DNA from: an uncultured Bacteroidales bacterium
GTDB taxonomy: Bacteria > Bacteroidota > Bacteroidia > Bacteroidales > UBA932
Direction of reading: 5' to 3'
DNA: 35,518 nt
NCBI GenBank assembly: GCA_944323775.1
Contig: CALUTT010000025.1
Location: 1-35,518 of the forward strand
Part shown: one piece after another, positions 3,562 through 19,074 of the stretch
Position numbering within the stretch: position 1 is the first letter of the stretch
How the letters are laid out: each line of letters begins with the position of its first letter
The notes under the pieces: generated by a model
What the model saw: only the letters and a program-made list of their open reading frames with translations
Told to the model about the DNA's origin: nothing
Database searches by the model: none
Made by a program: the position numbers and the translations under genes

Positions 3562-4938
3562 ATGGAGTTTCATAAGAGAGTGTCATTAACAGGAGCGTCA
3601 GTCGTGGCGCTGCTGGTGTCCGTCAGCCTCGCGGGGGAGGAACCCCGGGTCTATACGCTGAAGGACTGCATGGAATATGCCGTCGAGAGTTCGGCCGACA
3701 TGCGGATACGCAAGACGGAGGAGGATGACGAGCGGATAGCCAGGAGGGACGCCATCCTACAGGCATTCACGCCGCAGGTCAGCGCCTATGCCTATGCGTA
3801 TTCCAATTTCGGAAGGACCGTCGACCCCGAGACCAACACATACATATCGACCACATCCTTCAACAATGCGTACTCGCTCAGCGCGGGGATAGTGCTGTTC
3901 GACGGCTTCAGCGCCGTCAACAACATGAGGATTGCAAGGACAGCCCAGGCGATGGGCTACAGCAAGGAGGCGCAGCTCAGGGACAAGATATGCCTTGCCA
4001 CGATGGAGGCGTACTGCAATGTCGTCTATTATACCCGTCTTTCCGAAATCATCGGGGCTCAGGTCGAGACGGCTTCCCAGACTCTCGACCTGGTGGTCAG
4101 GCAGGAAGAACTTGGAATCAAGGGATATGCTGACGTGGTCCAGGCCAGGGCAGATGCCGCCGACATGGAATACCGCAAGGTCGAGGCCGACAACAACCTC
4201 AAGGACGCCGTCATAGTGCTCAAGGACGTGATGTTCTGGCCTCTGGACGAGGACCTGCAGATCGACATGTCCATTGCAGACGGCATGCTTGCCCCCTCGG
4301 GAGTCTCCGGCACGGACTCGTTGTCCGTCATCATAGAGACGGCGAAGAACAACGTGCCTGCATTGCAGATTGCCAGAGGCGACTTGCAGACTGCCCAGTT
4401 CAGGCTGAACACGGCAAGATGGCAGACAGTTCCGAGCCTTAGCATTTCAGGAGGGTGGAGTACAAGCTACTATACATATCCAGGCCAGAAGGGGTATGTG
4501 CCGACACCTTTCTGGACTCAGTTCAGCGACAACAGCGGAAGGTACTTGCAGCTGTCTCTGAGCATCCCCATTTTCGACCGTCTGTCCAGACGTTCCGACA
4601 TTGCAAGGAAAAGGAACGAGTATGTCAGGGCTGAAACGGAACTTGAACGCAAGGAGAGGGAGGTCGAGGCTGAAGTCATGAGGGCGGTTCAGGACAGGGA
4701 CGGAGCCATGGCCGCATTCATGCAGGCAGACAAACGTGCCCAGGTCCAGAAGGAAGCCTTTGAGCTTAACTCAAAGAAACTCGAGCAGGGGCTCATCTCT
4801 GCCATCGAGTACAAGACATCGTCCGAACAGTACCTCGCCGCCATGGCGGAAAGGCTGAACGCATTGCTCAAGTACGGCATCAAGAACAGGGTGGTGGCTT
4901 ATTATGCCGGCACCGGTTATCTGCAGCAGGAATATTGA
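3562..4938 (+). CDS. TolC-family outer membrane efflux channel
   Basis: A 458-residue outer-membrane channel subunit for the tripartite exporter encoded by the next four genes. A signal peptide is visible at residues 1-25 (KR, then a hydrophobic run, cleavage near SLA-GEE). Two outer-membrane-efflux repeats follow: the first contains YTLKDCMEYAVE and a beta-hairpin around SFNNAYSLSAGIVLFDGFS, the second has RYLQLSLSIPIFDRLSRRSD. Long heptad-rich helices lie between them, as in TolC. The frame is open back to a GTG at 3487, but that would place charged residues ahead of the signal peptide and cover the hairpin, so the ATG at 3562 is preferred. The adaptor gene follows after 20 bp. Confidence 0.92.
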   Translation: MEFHKRVSLTGASVVALLVSVSLAGEEPRVYTLKDCMEYAVESSADMRIRKTEEDDERIARRDAILQAFTPQVSAYAYAYSNFGRTVDPETNTYISTTSFNNAYSLSAGIVLFDGFSAVNNMRIARTAQAMGYSKEAQLRDKICLATMEAYCNVVYYTRLSEIIGAQVETASQTLDLVVRQEELGIKGYADVVQARADAADMEYRKVEADNNLKDAVIVLKDVMFWPLDEDLQIDMSIADGMLAPSGVSGTDSLSVIIETAKNNVPALQIARGDLQTAQFRLNTARWQTVPSLSISGGWSTSYYTYPGQKGYVPTPFWTQFSDNSGRYLQLSLSIPIFDRLSRRSDIARKRNEYVRAETELERKEREVEAEVMRAVQDRDGAMAAFMQADKRAQVQKEAFELNSKKLEQGLISAIEYKTSSEQYLAAMAERLNALLKYGIKNRVVAYYAGTGYLQQEY

Positions 4939-15183: not shown

Positions 15184-15194
15184 GACAGTCTCAG
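15180..15194. repeat. 15-bp palindrome spanning two convergent stop codons
   Basis: CTGAGACAGTCTCAG is a perfect 7-bp inverted repeat around a single central base. It contains the TGA of the P-type ATPase and, on the other strand, the TGA of the dehydrogenase fusion. With no loop it cannot form an ordinary terminator hairpin. Confidence 0.45.
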
Positions 15195-16675
15195 TCAGCG
15201 AGGACTTTCCATCTGACTCTCCATACGCCGTCGGCATAACTGTGGCTCAGTATCCTGAACCCCTTTATGTCGGCGGTGTTGCTTACATGCGAGCCAATGC
15301 ATGCACAGGCATCGTAGTCTCCGATCCTGACTATCCTTATCGTGTCTGGCGCATCAGCAGGGAGTTTGCCGAGGTCCACGAAGGCTGCGGCCTTGTCCTT
15401 GGGAACGAATTCGATGCTGACGTCGAGCCCCCTGCGTATGACTTCGTTCACGCTCTCCTCAATCCTTGAGACCTGGTCTTCGGACGGACAGGCGTCAAGC
15501 AGGTAGTCGCACTTGCTTTTCTTGCGCTCGATGTGAGCGTTGCGCGAGCGGGGGCAGCCGAACATCTTGACCATGGTTGCGTTGAGGATATGCTCGGCCG
15601 TATGTGCCGGCTCGAACTCCCGCTTGTTGTGAGGGGCGGGACTGCAGTCAACCGCGATTTTCATCACGCCGTCGGCCCGGCCCGAGAAGACTTCGTATGC
15701 CTTGTCTATTTCAGCCAGGGCGAAGCGTCTGGTAATCAGAGGTGTGGCGTCAAGCCTGCCTTCCGCTATCAGACGGAGAATCTCGTCGCAGTGGCAGGCA
15801 TCGACCCCTCCGGTCTTGAATACCAGGTTCTTTCCGTACATGTCAGGCAGAGGCAGGGTCTGGGCGTTCTCGTACATCGCGATTATCGCGACGGTCGCGT
15901 TCGGCCTTGCGCACTGCCATGCGAGCCTGAAGCTGCCGTCAGTCCCTGCGGCCTCGATGACCGAGTCGGCTCCTCCGTGTGCGCTGTTCGATAGGACGGT
16001 TTCGAGGCAGTCGTCCGGTCCGGTCACGATCACGTCAGGATAGTGTGAGCGCACGAAATCCCTTCTCCATGGGGATTTCTCGCAGACGATTATCCTTGCG
16101 GGCCTGTGCAGCATTGTGCACAGGAGGGTGCAGATTCCTGCCGGTCCGGCGCCGATTATCAGCACGGTGTCGCCTTCAGTGATGTCAGCGATGTCAGCCG
16201 CCCAGTATCCTGTGGACAGCAGGTCCCCCGTAAAGAGAGCCTGTTCGTCGCTGACTGTCGGCGGGATATGGTTGAGGCCGTTGTCGGCCATGGGTATGCG
16301 CACATATTCAGCCTGCCCTCCGTCGATGCGGCAGCCCACTGACCATCCGCCTTCGGGGGAACTGCAGTTGTTCACGTGGCCGCTGCGGCAGAAGAAGCAC
16401 TCCCCGCAGAAAGTCTCTACATTGACGCTGACCCTGTCGCCCCGGCGGAATCCGGTGACCCCACGCCCTGTCTCTTCGACTACGCCGACCATTTCATGCC
16501 CGAGAGTGACGCCATTGACGGCCCTCGGAACATTGCCGGCCATAATGTGGAGGTCGCTGGTGCAGATGCTCGAGAGGGTGACGCGCACTATGGCGTCTGT
16601 ATCCTCGAGAATTGCGGGCCTTGGTTTCTCGCAGAGTTCGAGACGGCCTGTATCCCTGAATGTGTATGCAAGCAT
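15191..16675 (-). CDS. Zinc alcohol dehydrogenase fused to an AlaX-like alanyl-tRNA editing domain
   Basis: A 494-residue two-domain protein in one uninterrupted frame. Residues 1-344 form a zinc-dependent medium-chain dehydrogenase: catalytic Zn ligands C38, H60 and E61; structural Zn cysteines C90, C93, C96 and C104; dinucleotide motif GAGPAG at 175-180. Residues ~350-494 match the second additional domain of AlaRS/ThrRS and the small AlaX proteins. The zinc motif HTAEH (H358, H362) is later completed by CIGSH (C459, H463), within the typical DYDACACIGSHVSNT context. AlaX proteins hydrolyse Ser- or Gly-tRNAAla in trans. Both active sites look complete. The start ATG lies 2 bp after the stop of the ProXp-ala gene, so the two are translationally linked. 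Substrate of the dehydrogenase is unknown. Confidence 0.88.
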   Translation of the reverse strand: MLAYTFRDTGRLELCEKPRPAILEDTDAIVRVTLSSICTSDLHIMAGNVPRAVNGVTLGHEMVGVVEETGRGVTGFRRGDRVSVNVETFCGECFFCRSGHVNNCSSPEGGWSVGCRIDGGQAEYVRIPMADNGLNHIPPTVSDEQALFTGDLLSTGYWAADIADITEGDTVLIIGAGPAGICTLLCTMLHRPARIIVCEKSPWRRDFVRSHYPDVIVTGPDDCLETVLSNSAHGGADSVIEAAGTDGSFRLAWQCARPNATVAIIAMYENAQTLPLPDMYGKNLVFKTGGVDACHCDEILRLIAEGRLDATPLITRRFALAEIDKAYEVFSGRADGVMKIAVDCSPAPHNKREFEPAHTAEHILNATMVKMFGCPRSRNAHIERKKSKCDYLLDACPSEDQVSRIEESVNEVIRRGLDVSIEFVPKDKAAAFVDLGKLPADAPDTIRIVRIGDYDACACIGSHVSNTADIKGFRILSHSYADGVWRVRWKVLAD

Positions 16676-16677
16676 GG

Positions 16678-17199
16678 CTAGTATAATTTTATGTATTCAT
16701 AGCTGTTCCCGACGCATTCCAGATAACGTCCGAAATCCTTGTTGGATATCACGACGGTCCCGCGGCAGTCATTCGGGTGGAACGAAAGGGTTTCGGCATT
16801 TCTGAGGTTCTCGTCGAGAAAAAGGTGGACATGGTTTCCTGTGTCGTTTATCAGGCCGAACGGAGAGACGCTCCCTGGCTCGAGTCCCAGGTATCGCATC
16901 ATCCTCTCGGCAGACGCGAAGGAGAGCTTGCCGCATGAGGGCAGCCCTCGCGACACGAGGGACTCCTTGAGTCTGTGCTCGAGTTCATGGATGTCGAGGT
17001 CATGGTCGCAGTCGAAGCAGACCAGGTAATGTCTGTCTCCCTTGTGATTGCGGAAGAACAGGTTCTTGCAGTGTACGCTGCCGTCATCTCTCCACCAGTG
17101 CTTTGCTTCTTCGATTGTCTTGCCCTCGGGGTGATTGTAGCAGCTGAACGGTATTCCATGTTCCGTCAGGTAGCTGAGTACTGTTTCCTGTCGTGTCAT
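16678..17199 (-). CDS. ProXp-ala / PrdX-type Ala-tRNA(Pro) deacylase (YbaK family)
   Basis: A 173-residue YbaK/INS-domain protein, predicted to hydrolyse Ala-tRNAPro made in error by prolyl-tRNA synthetase. The conserved catalytic-type Lys is K45, in VHCKNLFFRN. The segment HYLVCFDCDHDLDIHELEHRL, the loop GSVSPFGLIND (family GxxxPFG) and the HVHLFLDENL strand are all typical of the PrdX/ProXp-ala subfamily and less so of the Cys-deacylase YbaK branch. The start chosen is the ATG overlapping the glycerate kinase stop (ATGA, 17199-17196); an upstream ATG at 17229 would add ten unsupported residues. Its immediate neighbour also carries a tRNA-editing domain. Confidence 0.9.
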   Translation of the reverse strand: MTRQETVLSYLTEHGIPFSCYNHPEGKTIEEAKHWWRDDGSVHCKNLFFRNHKGDRHYLVCFDCDHDLDIHELEHRLKESLVSRGLPSCGKLSFASAERMMRYLGLEPGSVSPFGLINDTGNHVHLFLDENLRNAETLSFHPNDCRGTVVISNKDFGRYLECVGNSYEYIKLY

Positions 17200-18251
17200 C
17201 TTATTGTGTCCTTTATCTTTTCCGCCCATGCGAGCAGGTTCTCCCTTGCGGTCTCGGGCCTTACGGCGATAGTCTCGTCCATCCAGTCGGGAGTCACTGC
17301 ATCCACTCTTGCAAAGCCTGCCGCTGCCAGTTCTTCCCTGTCATCGACCTTCCCGGCGACAAGCCACACGGGTATGTCCATCTGTCTTGCTGCGGAGAGA
17401 ACTCGCAGCGGGAGTTTGCCCATCAGGGTCTGTCTGTCGGCATGGCCTTCGCCAGTTATCACCAGGGAGGCGCCGGCAAGGCACTCCGTGAATCCGGCGA
17501 GTTCGAAGAGCAGGTCGGCCCCGGAGCGCACGGTAGCGCCGAGATACTGCATGAAAGCATATCCAAGCCCTCCTGCGGCTCCCGCACCGGGATTCCTTGA
17601 GCAGTCCTTCCCGAGCCTTAGCGCCGAATCCTGTGCAAATCTGACGGCTCTCTGCTCAAGCAGTCCGACGACCTCGGGGCTCGCCCCTTTCTGAGGACCG
17701 AATACCATGGCGGCGCCACGCGGCCCGTACAGAGGGTTGTCGACGTCGCAGGCGAGAGTGAAACTGCAATTGTCCGGAAGGCCATCAGGACGGAGCTCCG
17801 AAAGAGCCCTGAGCATTCCGGTCCCCGCATCGCTTGTGCCGCTTCCGCCAAGTCCTATGATGAAACTGCGGCAGCCGCGTGCTACCGCGTCAAGAATCAG
17901 TTCTCCGACTCCGTAGCTTGTAGCAGCCAGCGGATCGAGCTCCTCCCTGGACATAAGAGCCAGCCCGCAGGCCCGTGCCGTCTCTATTACGGCAGTCCCG
18001 TCAGGAGCAATGCCGTAGCATGCTTCGACAGGACGCATCAGAGGGTCGTGTACAATTGCCGATACAGGTCTTGCGTGCATCGCCCGGCAGAAGGCTTCCA
18101 GCATGCCGTCGCCGCCGTCAGACATCGGTACTGAAAGCACGTCGTGCCCCTGGCTTTCCAGCGCCGAGCCAAGAATTGACTCTACTGCAACTGAACCGAG
18201 ACACCCCTTGAAAGAGTCTGTCGCCAGGATTATTCTTTTAGTTTCTTGCAT
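17196..18251 (-). CDS. Glycerate kinase (GarK/GlxK family)
   Basis: A 351-residue ATP-dependent glycerate kinase, phosphorylating D-glycerate to a phosphoglycerate. N-terminal ILATDSFKG, then SDGGDGMLEAF, the Gly-rich LGGSGTSDAGTGMLRAL (the family's characteristic loop) and GAAGGLGYAF are visible, and SLVITGEGHADRQTLMGK near the C-terminus is diagnostic. Length is slightly shorter than the usual ~375. The start overlaps the end of the metallo-hydrolase gene by 14 bp, and its stop overlaps the next gene in ATGA, so four genes form one coupled transcript. Whether it makes 2- or 3-phosphoglycerate cannot be read from sequence; this family usually makes the 2-isomer. Confidence 0.93.
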   Translation of the reverse strand: MQETKRIILATDSFKGCLGSVAVESILGSALESQGHDVLSVPMSDGGDGMLEAFCRAMHARPVSAIVHDPLMRPVEACYGIAPDGTAVIETARACGLALMSREELDPLAATSYGVGELILDAVARGCRSFIIGLGGSGTSDAGTGMLRALSELRPDGLPDNCSFTLACDVDNPLYGPRGAAMVFGPQKGASPEVVGLLEQRAVRFAQDSALRLGKDCSRNPGAGAAGGLGYAFMQYLGATVRSGADLLFELAGFTECLAGASLVITGEGHADRQTLMGKLPLRVLSAARQMDIPVWLVAGKVDDREELAAAGFARVDAVTPDWMDETIAVRPETARENLLAWAEKIKDTIR

Positions 18252-19074
18252 TTCCTTCCTGGATGAATCCGGGAACGGGGAAGTGCATGCCGGCCATCAG
18301 GAGACCTTCATCAGAGGCCATGCGCAGCAGGCTGCGTCTTGCCGATACTGCCTTTTCCTTGTCCATGTCGAATCCTGCGCAGTATTCGTTGTGGTCCATC
18401 TGAAGGGCCACTCCGTGCATCAGGTCACCTACGACGAGAAGTTTCCCGGCCCTGTATGCGGTGTGTCCGGGCGTATGCCCGGGAGCATCGACGGCCAGTA
18501 CGTTCCCGGGAAGCGTATCCCCGAATTCGAACAGATGGATTTTGCCTTCGTAGGCAGCGGCGATGCTCTCGATCTGGGATGACTGTCCGTCCTGCATGCT
18601 GCTCCATGCCATGTATTCCGGATATGAGATATAGACCTTGGCATTGCCGAACACTGCGGAACTGTCAGACAGCATTCCGCCGGTATGGTCGCCGTGAAGG
18701 TGGGTCAGGTATATAAGGTCAATGTCGTCAGGAGAAAGTCCCAGAGAAGAGAGCCCGCTGAGCAGACGGCTGTCCGCGGCACCGAGCCCTGTGTCGAACA
18801 GTATCCTAAGTCCGTCGGTTTCAAGCAGGAAAGTCCCAACACTCGCAGGGATTCCGTCTTCAAGCCCGAGTTCAGATATCAGGCTGTCAGGAGCGCTGAA
18901 AAGAGAGGCCGGCATCAGCCGCGGCTCGGCGTTGTCACGAATCCATGTGACTTTCATGCCGTCAAGTTCGACTGTCTTTACAAACTGGTCGGAGTCTTTC
19001 TGTCCGCTGCAGGAACTGGCTGCAAGCGCTGCGGCAAGCGTCATTGCGGCCGCTTGGATGAATCTTCTGTGCAT
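18238..19074 (-). CDS. Exported metallo-beta-lactamase-fold hydrolase, probable lipoprotein
   Basis: A 278-residue protein with an N-terminal signal sequence (MHRRFIQAAAMTLAAALAASSC) whose Cys 22 could be lipidated, although the -3 residue is Ala and the lipobox is imperfect. The metallo-beta-lactamase motif HLHGDH is present, with later ligands in PGHTPGH, VGDLMHG and GMHFPVP, giving a complete di-metal set. Overall the pattern resembles the AHL-lactonase-like and other small-molecule hydrolase branches (GTFLLETDGLRILFDTGLG). Substrate is unknown. It is the first gene of the four-gene operon and overlaps glycerate kinase by 14 bp, with a promoter-like region immediately upstream. Confidence 0.88.
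   Translation of the reverse strand: MHRRFIQAAAMTLAAALAASSCSGQKDSDQFVKTVELDGMKVTWIRDNAEPRLMPASLFSAPDSLISELGLEDGIPASVGTFLLETDGLRILFDTGLGAADSRLLSGLSSLGLSPDDIDLIYLTHLHGDHTGGMLSDSSAVFGNAKVYISYPEYMAWSSMQDGQSSQIESIAAAYEGKIHLFEFGDTLPGNVLAVDAPGHTPGHTAYRAGKLLVVGDLMHGVALQMDHNEYCAGFDMDKEKAVSARRSLLRMASDEGLLMAGMHFPVPGFIQEGNARN

Follow-up and report, generated by a model that had tools for sequence, protein, structure and literature searches.

The window analysed here is a stretch of 35,518 nucleotides from the draft genome of a gut bacterium of the genus Cryptobacteroides (Bacteroidales; 1.71 Mb in 35 contigs, 94.5% complete). The genus name comes from sequence identity, since loci from genomes of this genus match named Candidatus Cryptobacteroides records base for base (L094 and L016, for instance, agree at 4029 of 4029 bases). 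The window carries, on the reverse strand at 15191..16675, an open reading frame of 494 codons that runs from an ATG without an internal stop and, judged by the frame itself, by Pfam and NCBIfam matches and by codon usage, encodes a zinc alcohol dehydrogenase (ADH) followed by an AlaX-S-type aminoacyl-tRNA editing domain. When the two halves were searched against Pfam, a check proposed in the sequence-only reading of this DNA, ADH_N (residues 25-129, 5.6e-25), ADH_zinc_N (residues 192-284, 2.3e-08) and tRNA_SAD (PF07973; residues 446-487, 4.2e-11) all scored above the Pfam cut-offs. Together with the metal ligands described below, the 494-residue frame and these matches bear out that reading's central observation, namely that a single frame joins a complete zinc dehydrogenase to a complete AlaX domain. 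Codon-usage scores prefer the fused frame in 17 of 17 blocks, the margin being narrow in block 181-210. Over residues 335-352 the fused frame scores 0.30 against -0.82 and -0.80 for the others, so that no frameshift is visible by codon usage at the junction. A search of the bacterium's own genome found a match over both halves at a single place.

The fused gene is the last member of a tight same-strand cluster that reads, in order, a metallo-beta-lactamase-superfamily protein (18238..19074, reverse strand; PF00753, 9.7e-19), a glycerate kinase that lies in the overlapping part of the cluster (17196..18251, reverse strand; PF02595, 8.9e-107) and a ProX-type (tRNA_edit) aminoacyl-tRNA deacylase (16678..17229, reverse strand; PF04073, 1.1e-21), which ends 2 nt before the start of the fusion. 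ProX, too, acts in tRNA proofreading. A conserved operon with ProX or glycerate kinase was considered but found no support: ProX is found in 35 of 79 genus genomes and in the 34 others its place is not beside AlaX, making this neighbourhood unique to the present genome among the 35, and no glycerate kinase was found at the fetched loci, many of which have short flanks, except at the fusion's own locus (L001). Homologues of the metallo-beta-lactamase-fold protein lie near ADH genes in Prevotella (L048, L072 and L073), on the opposite strand and tail-to-tail; L157 and L024 gave further matches. A role in defence was likewise set aside, the lone PADLOC match being a weak one to mad2 (3.4e-4) that covers residues 158-210 only. 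As a separate observation, no gene for a D-aminoacyl-tRNA deacylase (DTD, PF02580) was found in this 94.5%-complete genome (G000), and 68 of the 79 genus genomes searched have one.

The dehydrogenase part occupies residues 1-345 (15641..16675, reverse strand) and includes a GAGPAG NAD(P) loop; its limits follow from Pfam, conservation across 103 aligned rows, PDB matches and stand-alone relatives, the last of which match the fused protein from residue 1 to about 342-345. Its closest solved structures are PDB 5yln (2.6e-65) and 4cpd (7.6e-50), and the nearest Bacteroidales ADH relatives are 62-71% identical to it. With these proteins it shares a complete domain, both sets of zinc ligands and the GxGPxG cofactor loop, and the presence of the GroES-like and Rossmann domains with the zinc-ligand residues places it among the zinc medium-chain ADHs. 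Residues C38, H60, E61 and D151, which we take to be the catalytic zinc site, and C90, C93, C96 and C104, presumably the structural zinc ligands, are kept in 97% or more of the 103 rows. None of the 25 NCBIfam families listed for this half reached its cut-off, and two specific identities, L-threonine 3-dehydrogenase (TDH model, 128 bits against a cut-off of 458) and scyllo-inosose dehydrogenase (IolM model, 138 bits against 450), fell short of their curated cut-offs.

Besides its C-terminal AlaX, what sets the fused protein apart from other zinc medium-chain ADHs is the alteration of 17 of 186 near-invariant columns, H46A, S48N, G293A and D295H among them, with the zinc ligands all intact. This makes it the most deviant of the 103 rows (the next worst has 8 altered columns), and its end branch in a tree measures 1.04 against a median of 0.11, its placement being unsure. 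Such changes could possibly reflect a new substrate or relaxed constraint, and the altered columns and the branch length together suggest that the ADH half may be changing function or may be under relaxed constraint. Elsewhere, an ADH of the same type (G1076, L247:1301-2803, reverse strand) bears at its C-terminus an unrelated stretch of about 150 residues that has no Pfam match at E 0.01.

The AlaX-S-type part spans residues 346-494 (15194..15640, reverse strand), as delimited by Pfam, NCBIfam and a profile of 56 AlaX rows. The NCBIfam models AlaXM (7.7e-21) and AlaRS (3.5e-20) both match within residues 352-488 and both score below their whole-protein cut-offs. The 56-row profile matches Pyrococcus horikoshii AlaX-S (1v4p/1wxo) nearly end to end at 1.4e-13, with AlaRS editing domains next. 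The zinc ligands H358, H362, C459 and H463, correctly picked out by the sequence-only reading, are invariant in all 56 rows and align with H9, H13, C116 and H120, given as the AlaX-S zinc ligands in PMC3680381. The editing part lacks an extra N-terminal domain of the AlaX-M/L type: AlaX-S is matched from its residue 7 to residue 150 of 157, and the AlaXM model only from position 97 of 234. The limits of 350-494 first proposed for this half were nearly right and the assignment to the SAD/AlaX family holds; most matches to stand-alone AlaX begin at about residue 348. Only 3 of 67 near-invariant columns are altered here (fifth of 49 rows), but the branch is again long, at 0.51 (median 0.11).

In its near full-length match, its H-x3-H and C-x3-H ligands and its size of about 145 residues, this half resembles both P. 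horikoshii AlaX-S and the stand-alone AlaX proteins of Bacteroidales, from which it differs in hanging on the C-terminus of a dehydrogenase; with tRNA_SAD and the HxxxH and CxxxH ligands present in a protein that does not stand alone, it is an AlaX domain and not a free-standing AlaX. An identity of the fused protein as AlaRS was rejected, no synthetase domain lying in the frame. The one further AlaX-like match in the genome falls in a 909-aa frame on contig C22 that fits AlaRS. A stand-alone AlaX gene was not found elsewhere in this 94.5%-complete genome. A review (PMC11295145) describes AlaX-S as hydrolysing only Ser-tRNA(Ala), without tRNA specificity, and by analogy of type the AlaX half likely hydrolyses Ser-tRNA(Ala). 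The earlier view that AlaX normally occurs alone or within AlaRS holds with a known exception, since PMC3680381 describes an AlaX-like domain joined to tryptophanyl-tRNA synthetase in apicomplexans. That alveolate fusion (Plasmodium and others) likewise places an AlaX-type domain on an unrelated catalytic domain. There, according to the same paper (PMC3680381), the zinc ligands are lost, AlaX is N-terminal, a 72-residue linker separates the parts and a tRNA-binding role is proposed, whereas the Cryptobacteroides fusion has intact ligands and no linker.

At the junction (residues 343-349, DCSPAPH; 15629..15649, reverse strand), as judged by the termini of stand-alone ADHs and AlaX proteins, the usual C-terminus of an ADH passes straight into the N-terminus of an AlaX (HNK...). 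The conserved part of stand-alone ADHs stops at the equivalent of about residue 342-345, after which comes a variable tail that can reach about 16 residues. What the sequence shows is one coding frame with complete domains, retained metal ligands and no linker.

To ask how widely this arrangement occurs, we searched with the full-length protein for genomes that hold both halves in one frame. One was found among 61 and one among 400 genomes of the genus, one among 393 of the order, one among 269 of the family and one among 298 genomes of relatives; these sets overlap, and the sole positive each time was the fusion's own genome. Up to three candidates per genome were scored in the 400-genus and 393-order searches, and up to five in the 298-relative and 269-family searches, so that a second-ranking AlaX may be missed and the counts of ADH/AlaX co-occurrence given below are lower bounds. 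An AlaX profile run against 257 genomes of the phylum found AlaX in 33, the longest frame besides the fusion being 318 aa, with four AlaX frames of 238-318 aa left unread. All 80 genome-contig loci drawn from the matches listed (of 569 relatives) cover the ADH half, and the DNA fetched for them gave no AlaX match. Among 61 matching phage records none covers more than 80% of the query, the best three matching the ADH half (one of them to residue 370); one IMG/VR contig matches residues 1-328, and the viral contigs searched do not contain the exact DNA of the junction. With the fusion's own genome alone positive in the genus, family, order, relative and phylum searches, we dropped the idea of a conserved architecture. 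A keyword search of the literature found no paper describing AlaX joined to a dehydrogenase, and the ADH-AlaX architecture appears unreported in the literature searched.

The explanation that we favour, at a probability of roughly 0.6, is a lineage-specific end-to-end fusion in one Cryptobacteroides species that yields two independent enzymes on one chain. An ordinary Bacteroidales zinc ADH gene would have ended up immediately before the only AlaX found in the species and in the same reading frame, and the loss of the intervening stop codon would then have left a single frame. Its product would most likely be one polypeptide with two enzymes side by side and no catalytic link between them: an NAD(P)-dependent zinc dehydrogenase, and a putative AlaX-S-type trans-editing hydrolase that would clear mischarged (Ser-)tRNA. 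We infer translation as one chain, the retention of both activities, their independence and their substrates. In favour of this account, both halves are common as stand-alone genes, and the conserved regions of these end or begin at the junction; the absence of the fusion from the other genomes searched, the varied partners of AlaX described below, the different extension of the G1076 ADH, the well-kept columns of the AlaX half and the lack of a second AlaX gene in this genome point the same way. Against it, the evidence comes from one draft assembly, the one genome of the species; the deviant ADH half, the long AlaX branch, a possible internal start at Met338 and the three genomes with neighbouring AlaX and ADH genes, taken up below, also count against it.

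That dependence on a single draft in 35 contigs, together with the failure to find the fusion in any other assembly searched, leaves room for a base-calling or assembly artefact, in which the organism itself keeps the two genes apart and a stop codon was lost, or contigs were misjoined, in the draft. We regard this as unlikely. GC3 and codon usage run smoothly across the junction, the joint falls at the natural ends of both proteins with no frameshift, and the gene lies 15 kb inside its contig among closely packed same-strand neighbours. As a measure of how often such joints arise in these drafts, four control families were read in 79 of the 81 AlaX-bearing genus genomes (G211 and G226 left out). 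Joined frames numbered 0 of 69 for DTD, 1 of 35 for ProX, 0 of 75 places for SmpB and 1 of 73 places for peptidyl-tRNA hydrolase (PTH), only 2 of 252 in total, the frames read being the longer ones (ProX above 212 aa, SmpB above 223 aa, and PTH above 241 aa plus one shorter). In the ProX case the deacylase shares a frame with a family 2 glycosyltransferase, as identified by Pfam (G204, L164:1727-3259, reverse strand). In the PTH case (G146, L233:161-1201, forward strand) a PTH without its first residues is joined to foreign sequence near the start of a contig; this is probably an assembly chimera, and to that extent it lends the artefact some weight.

Other joints of the same AlaX family bear on how the fusion should be read. 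A hand count gave 86 AlaX places in 81 of the 400 genus genomes, and 5 of the 86 (4 of 85 without the present fusion) are joined to a recognisable partner. In frame and end to end with their neighbours are a GNAT-AlaX (L119, G302), whose GNAT part has no Pfam match and matches PDB 2pc1 at 4e-23, an alpha/beta hydrolase-AlaX (L121, G272), a TIGR04076-AlaX (L131, G374) and an AlaX followed by an N-terminal fragment of MetH (L120, G385); an alpha-amylase-AlaX (L139, G725) occurs in a single-contig genome from a different family of the order. These joints differ from the present fusion in their partners, and three of them (L119, L121 and L139) keep at the joint a methionine like that of an AlaX start, which L131 does not and which the present fusion has not retained. 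Fourteen other genus places with frames above 200 aa were read, two of which (G177 and G065) have a long frame beyond a stop; in the order sample one joint, the alpha-amylase-AlaX, was read and two 223-aa frames were left unread. Since the partners differ among the joints, the choice of partner is not specific. The surroundings of AlaX genes are varied across the genus. A rough ORF call, with L115 and L128 counted as one place, shows that at 17 of 49 loci the AlaX match is preceded on the same strand by a gene ending no more than 55 nt away, a closeness that would make AlaX fusions easy to form. We also considered whether AlaX is unusually prone to fusion. Within the genus, with the present fusion left out, the excess of AlaX joints over the controls is suggestive (Fisher p 0.037); it is gone when 75 AlaX places from other genera of the family are added (4 of 160 against 2 of 252, p 0.21; the four longest of the added frames were read and hold no joint, and four of 202-213 aa were unread), and we drew no firm enrichment from these numbers.

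The sequence-only reading had proposed that a natural fusion links the dehydrogenase's substrate or redox state to quality control of alanine charging. A broader form of this idea is that the ADH's metabolite or redox state influences the mischarging of tRNA(Ala), or that the pair deals with a shared stress; the fusion would then have made permanent a partnership formed elsewhere by two genes. The sole result to favour such a functional tie comes from three Cryptobacteroides genomes (G299, G377 and G393; L127 5362-6869, L128 5321-6825 and L129 5905-7406), in which AlaX lies directly upstream of the ADH, in the reverse of the fusion order and with either a gap or an overlap of 2 nt, and it makes a weak case. 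The ADH type is present in 42 and AlaX in 81 of the 400 genus genomes, with both in at least 11, so that of these at least 11 one has the fusion and three have the tight AlaX-then-ADH pair. A quick tree puts the paired ADHs in a six-row clade (SH-aLRT 96) that excludes the fused ADH, and this, with the reversed order, makes the two arrangements look independent, although the fused ADH is a long branch whose placement is unsure. The pairs of G299 and G393 are syntenic and represent one event; those two genomes differ from G377 in their flanks, and a weakly supported AlaX tree sets G377 apart from them. By a rough binomial estimate, two independent chance adjacencies among the 36 sampled both-gene genomes would have a probability of about 0.002, rising to about 0.06 if G377 shares the ancestor of G299 and G393, which would leave one event besides the fusion that prompted the search.

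Set against this, adjacent ADH and AlaX genes were found in none of 16 family and none of 9 order genomes with both genes (the order ADHs being at least 62% identical), co-occurrence in the genus is not above chance (at least 11 of 400; Fisher p 0.31), and AlaX is joined elsewhere to unrelated partners. We therefore think coupling of this kind rather improbable. The same reading had named beforehand, as an outcome that would refute it, an occurrence of the fusion in only one assembly, and that is the outcome of the genus, family, order and relative searches. With a single occurrence in one draft and AlaX joints to varied partners, the proposed link between redox state and alanine charging is left unsupported. 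A further possibility, which we consider unlikely, is that the long chain is made but that an internal ATG, for instance Met338 (15662..15664, reverse strand), also or even chiefly yields free AlaX: this codon lies 11 residues before the conserved HNK, close to where stand-alone AlaX proteins have a methionine (about 8-9 residues before), and AlaX-start-like methionines are kept inside the joined frames of G302, G272 and G725, but since stand-alone ADHs have Met or Ile at the equivalent place, Met338 belongs to the ADH.

The local joining of two ordinary genes stands as our preferred account. A far bolder and improbable possibility is a recurring Cryptobacteroides ADH/AlaX module with at least two origins, once as an AlaX-ADH gene pair and once as an ADH-AlaX chain, in which a metabolite of the ADH would cause or report mischarging with serine and which, with ProX and glycerate kinase, would form a cluster for serine/glycerate metabolism and the clearing of mistranslation. 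Were such a module real, central metabolism would be connected with tRNA proofreading, and the unusual changes in the fused ADH would reflect a new substrate. The simplest account is that neighbouring genes were joined at tolerant ends, leaving two independent enzymes on one chain. What we see looks like a real but local event, and not like evidence of metabolism controlling proofreading. The varied partners of AlaX warn against taking any one fusion as a functional partnership, and they indicate that a small editing domain can be attached to quite different enzymes with its active-site residues intact.
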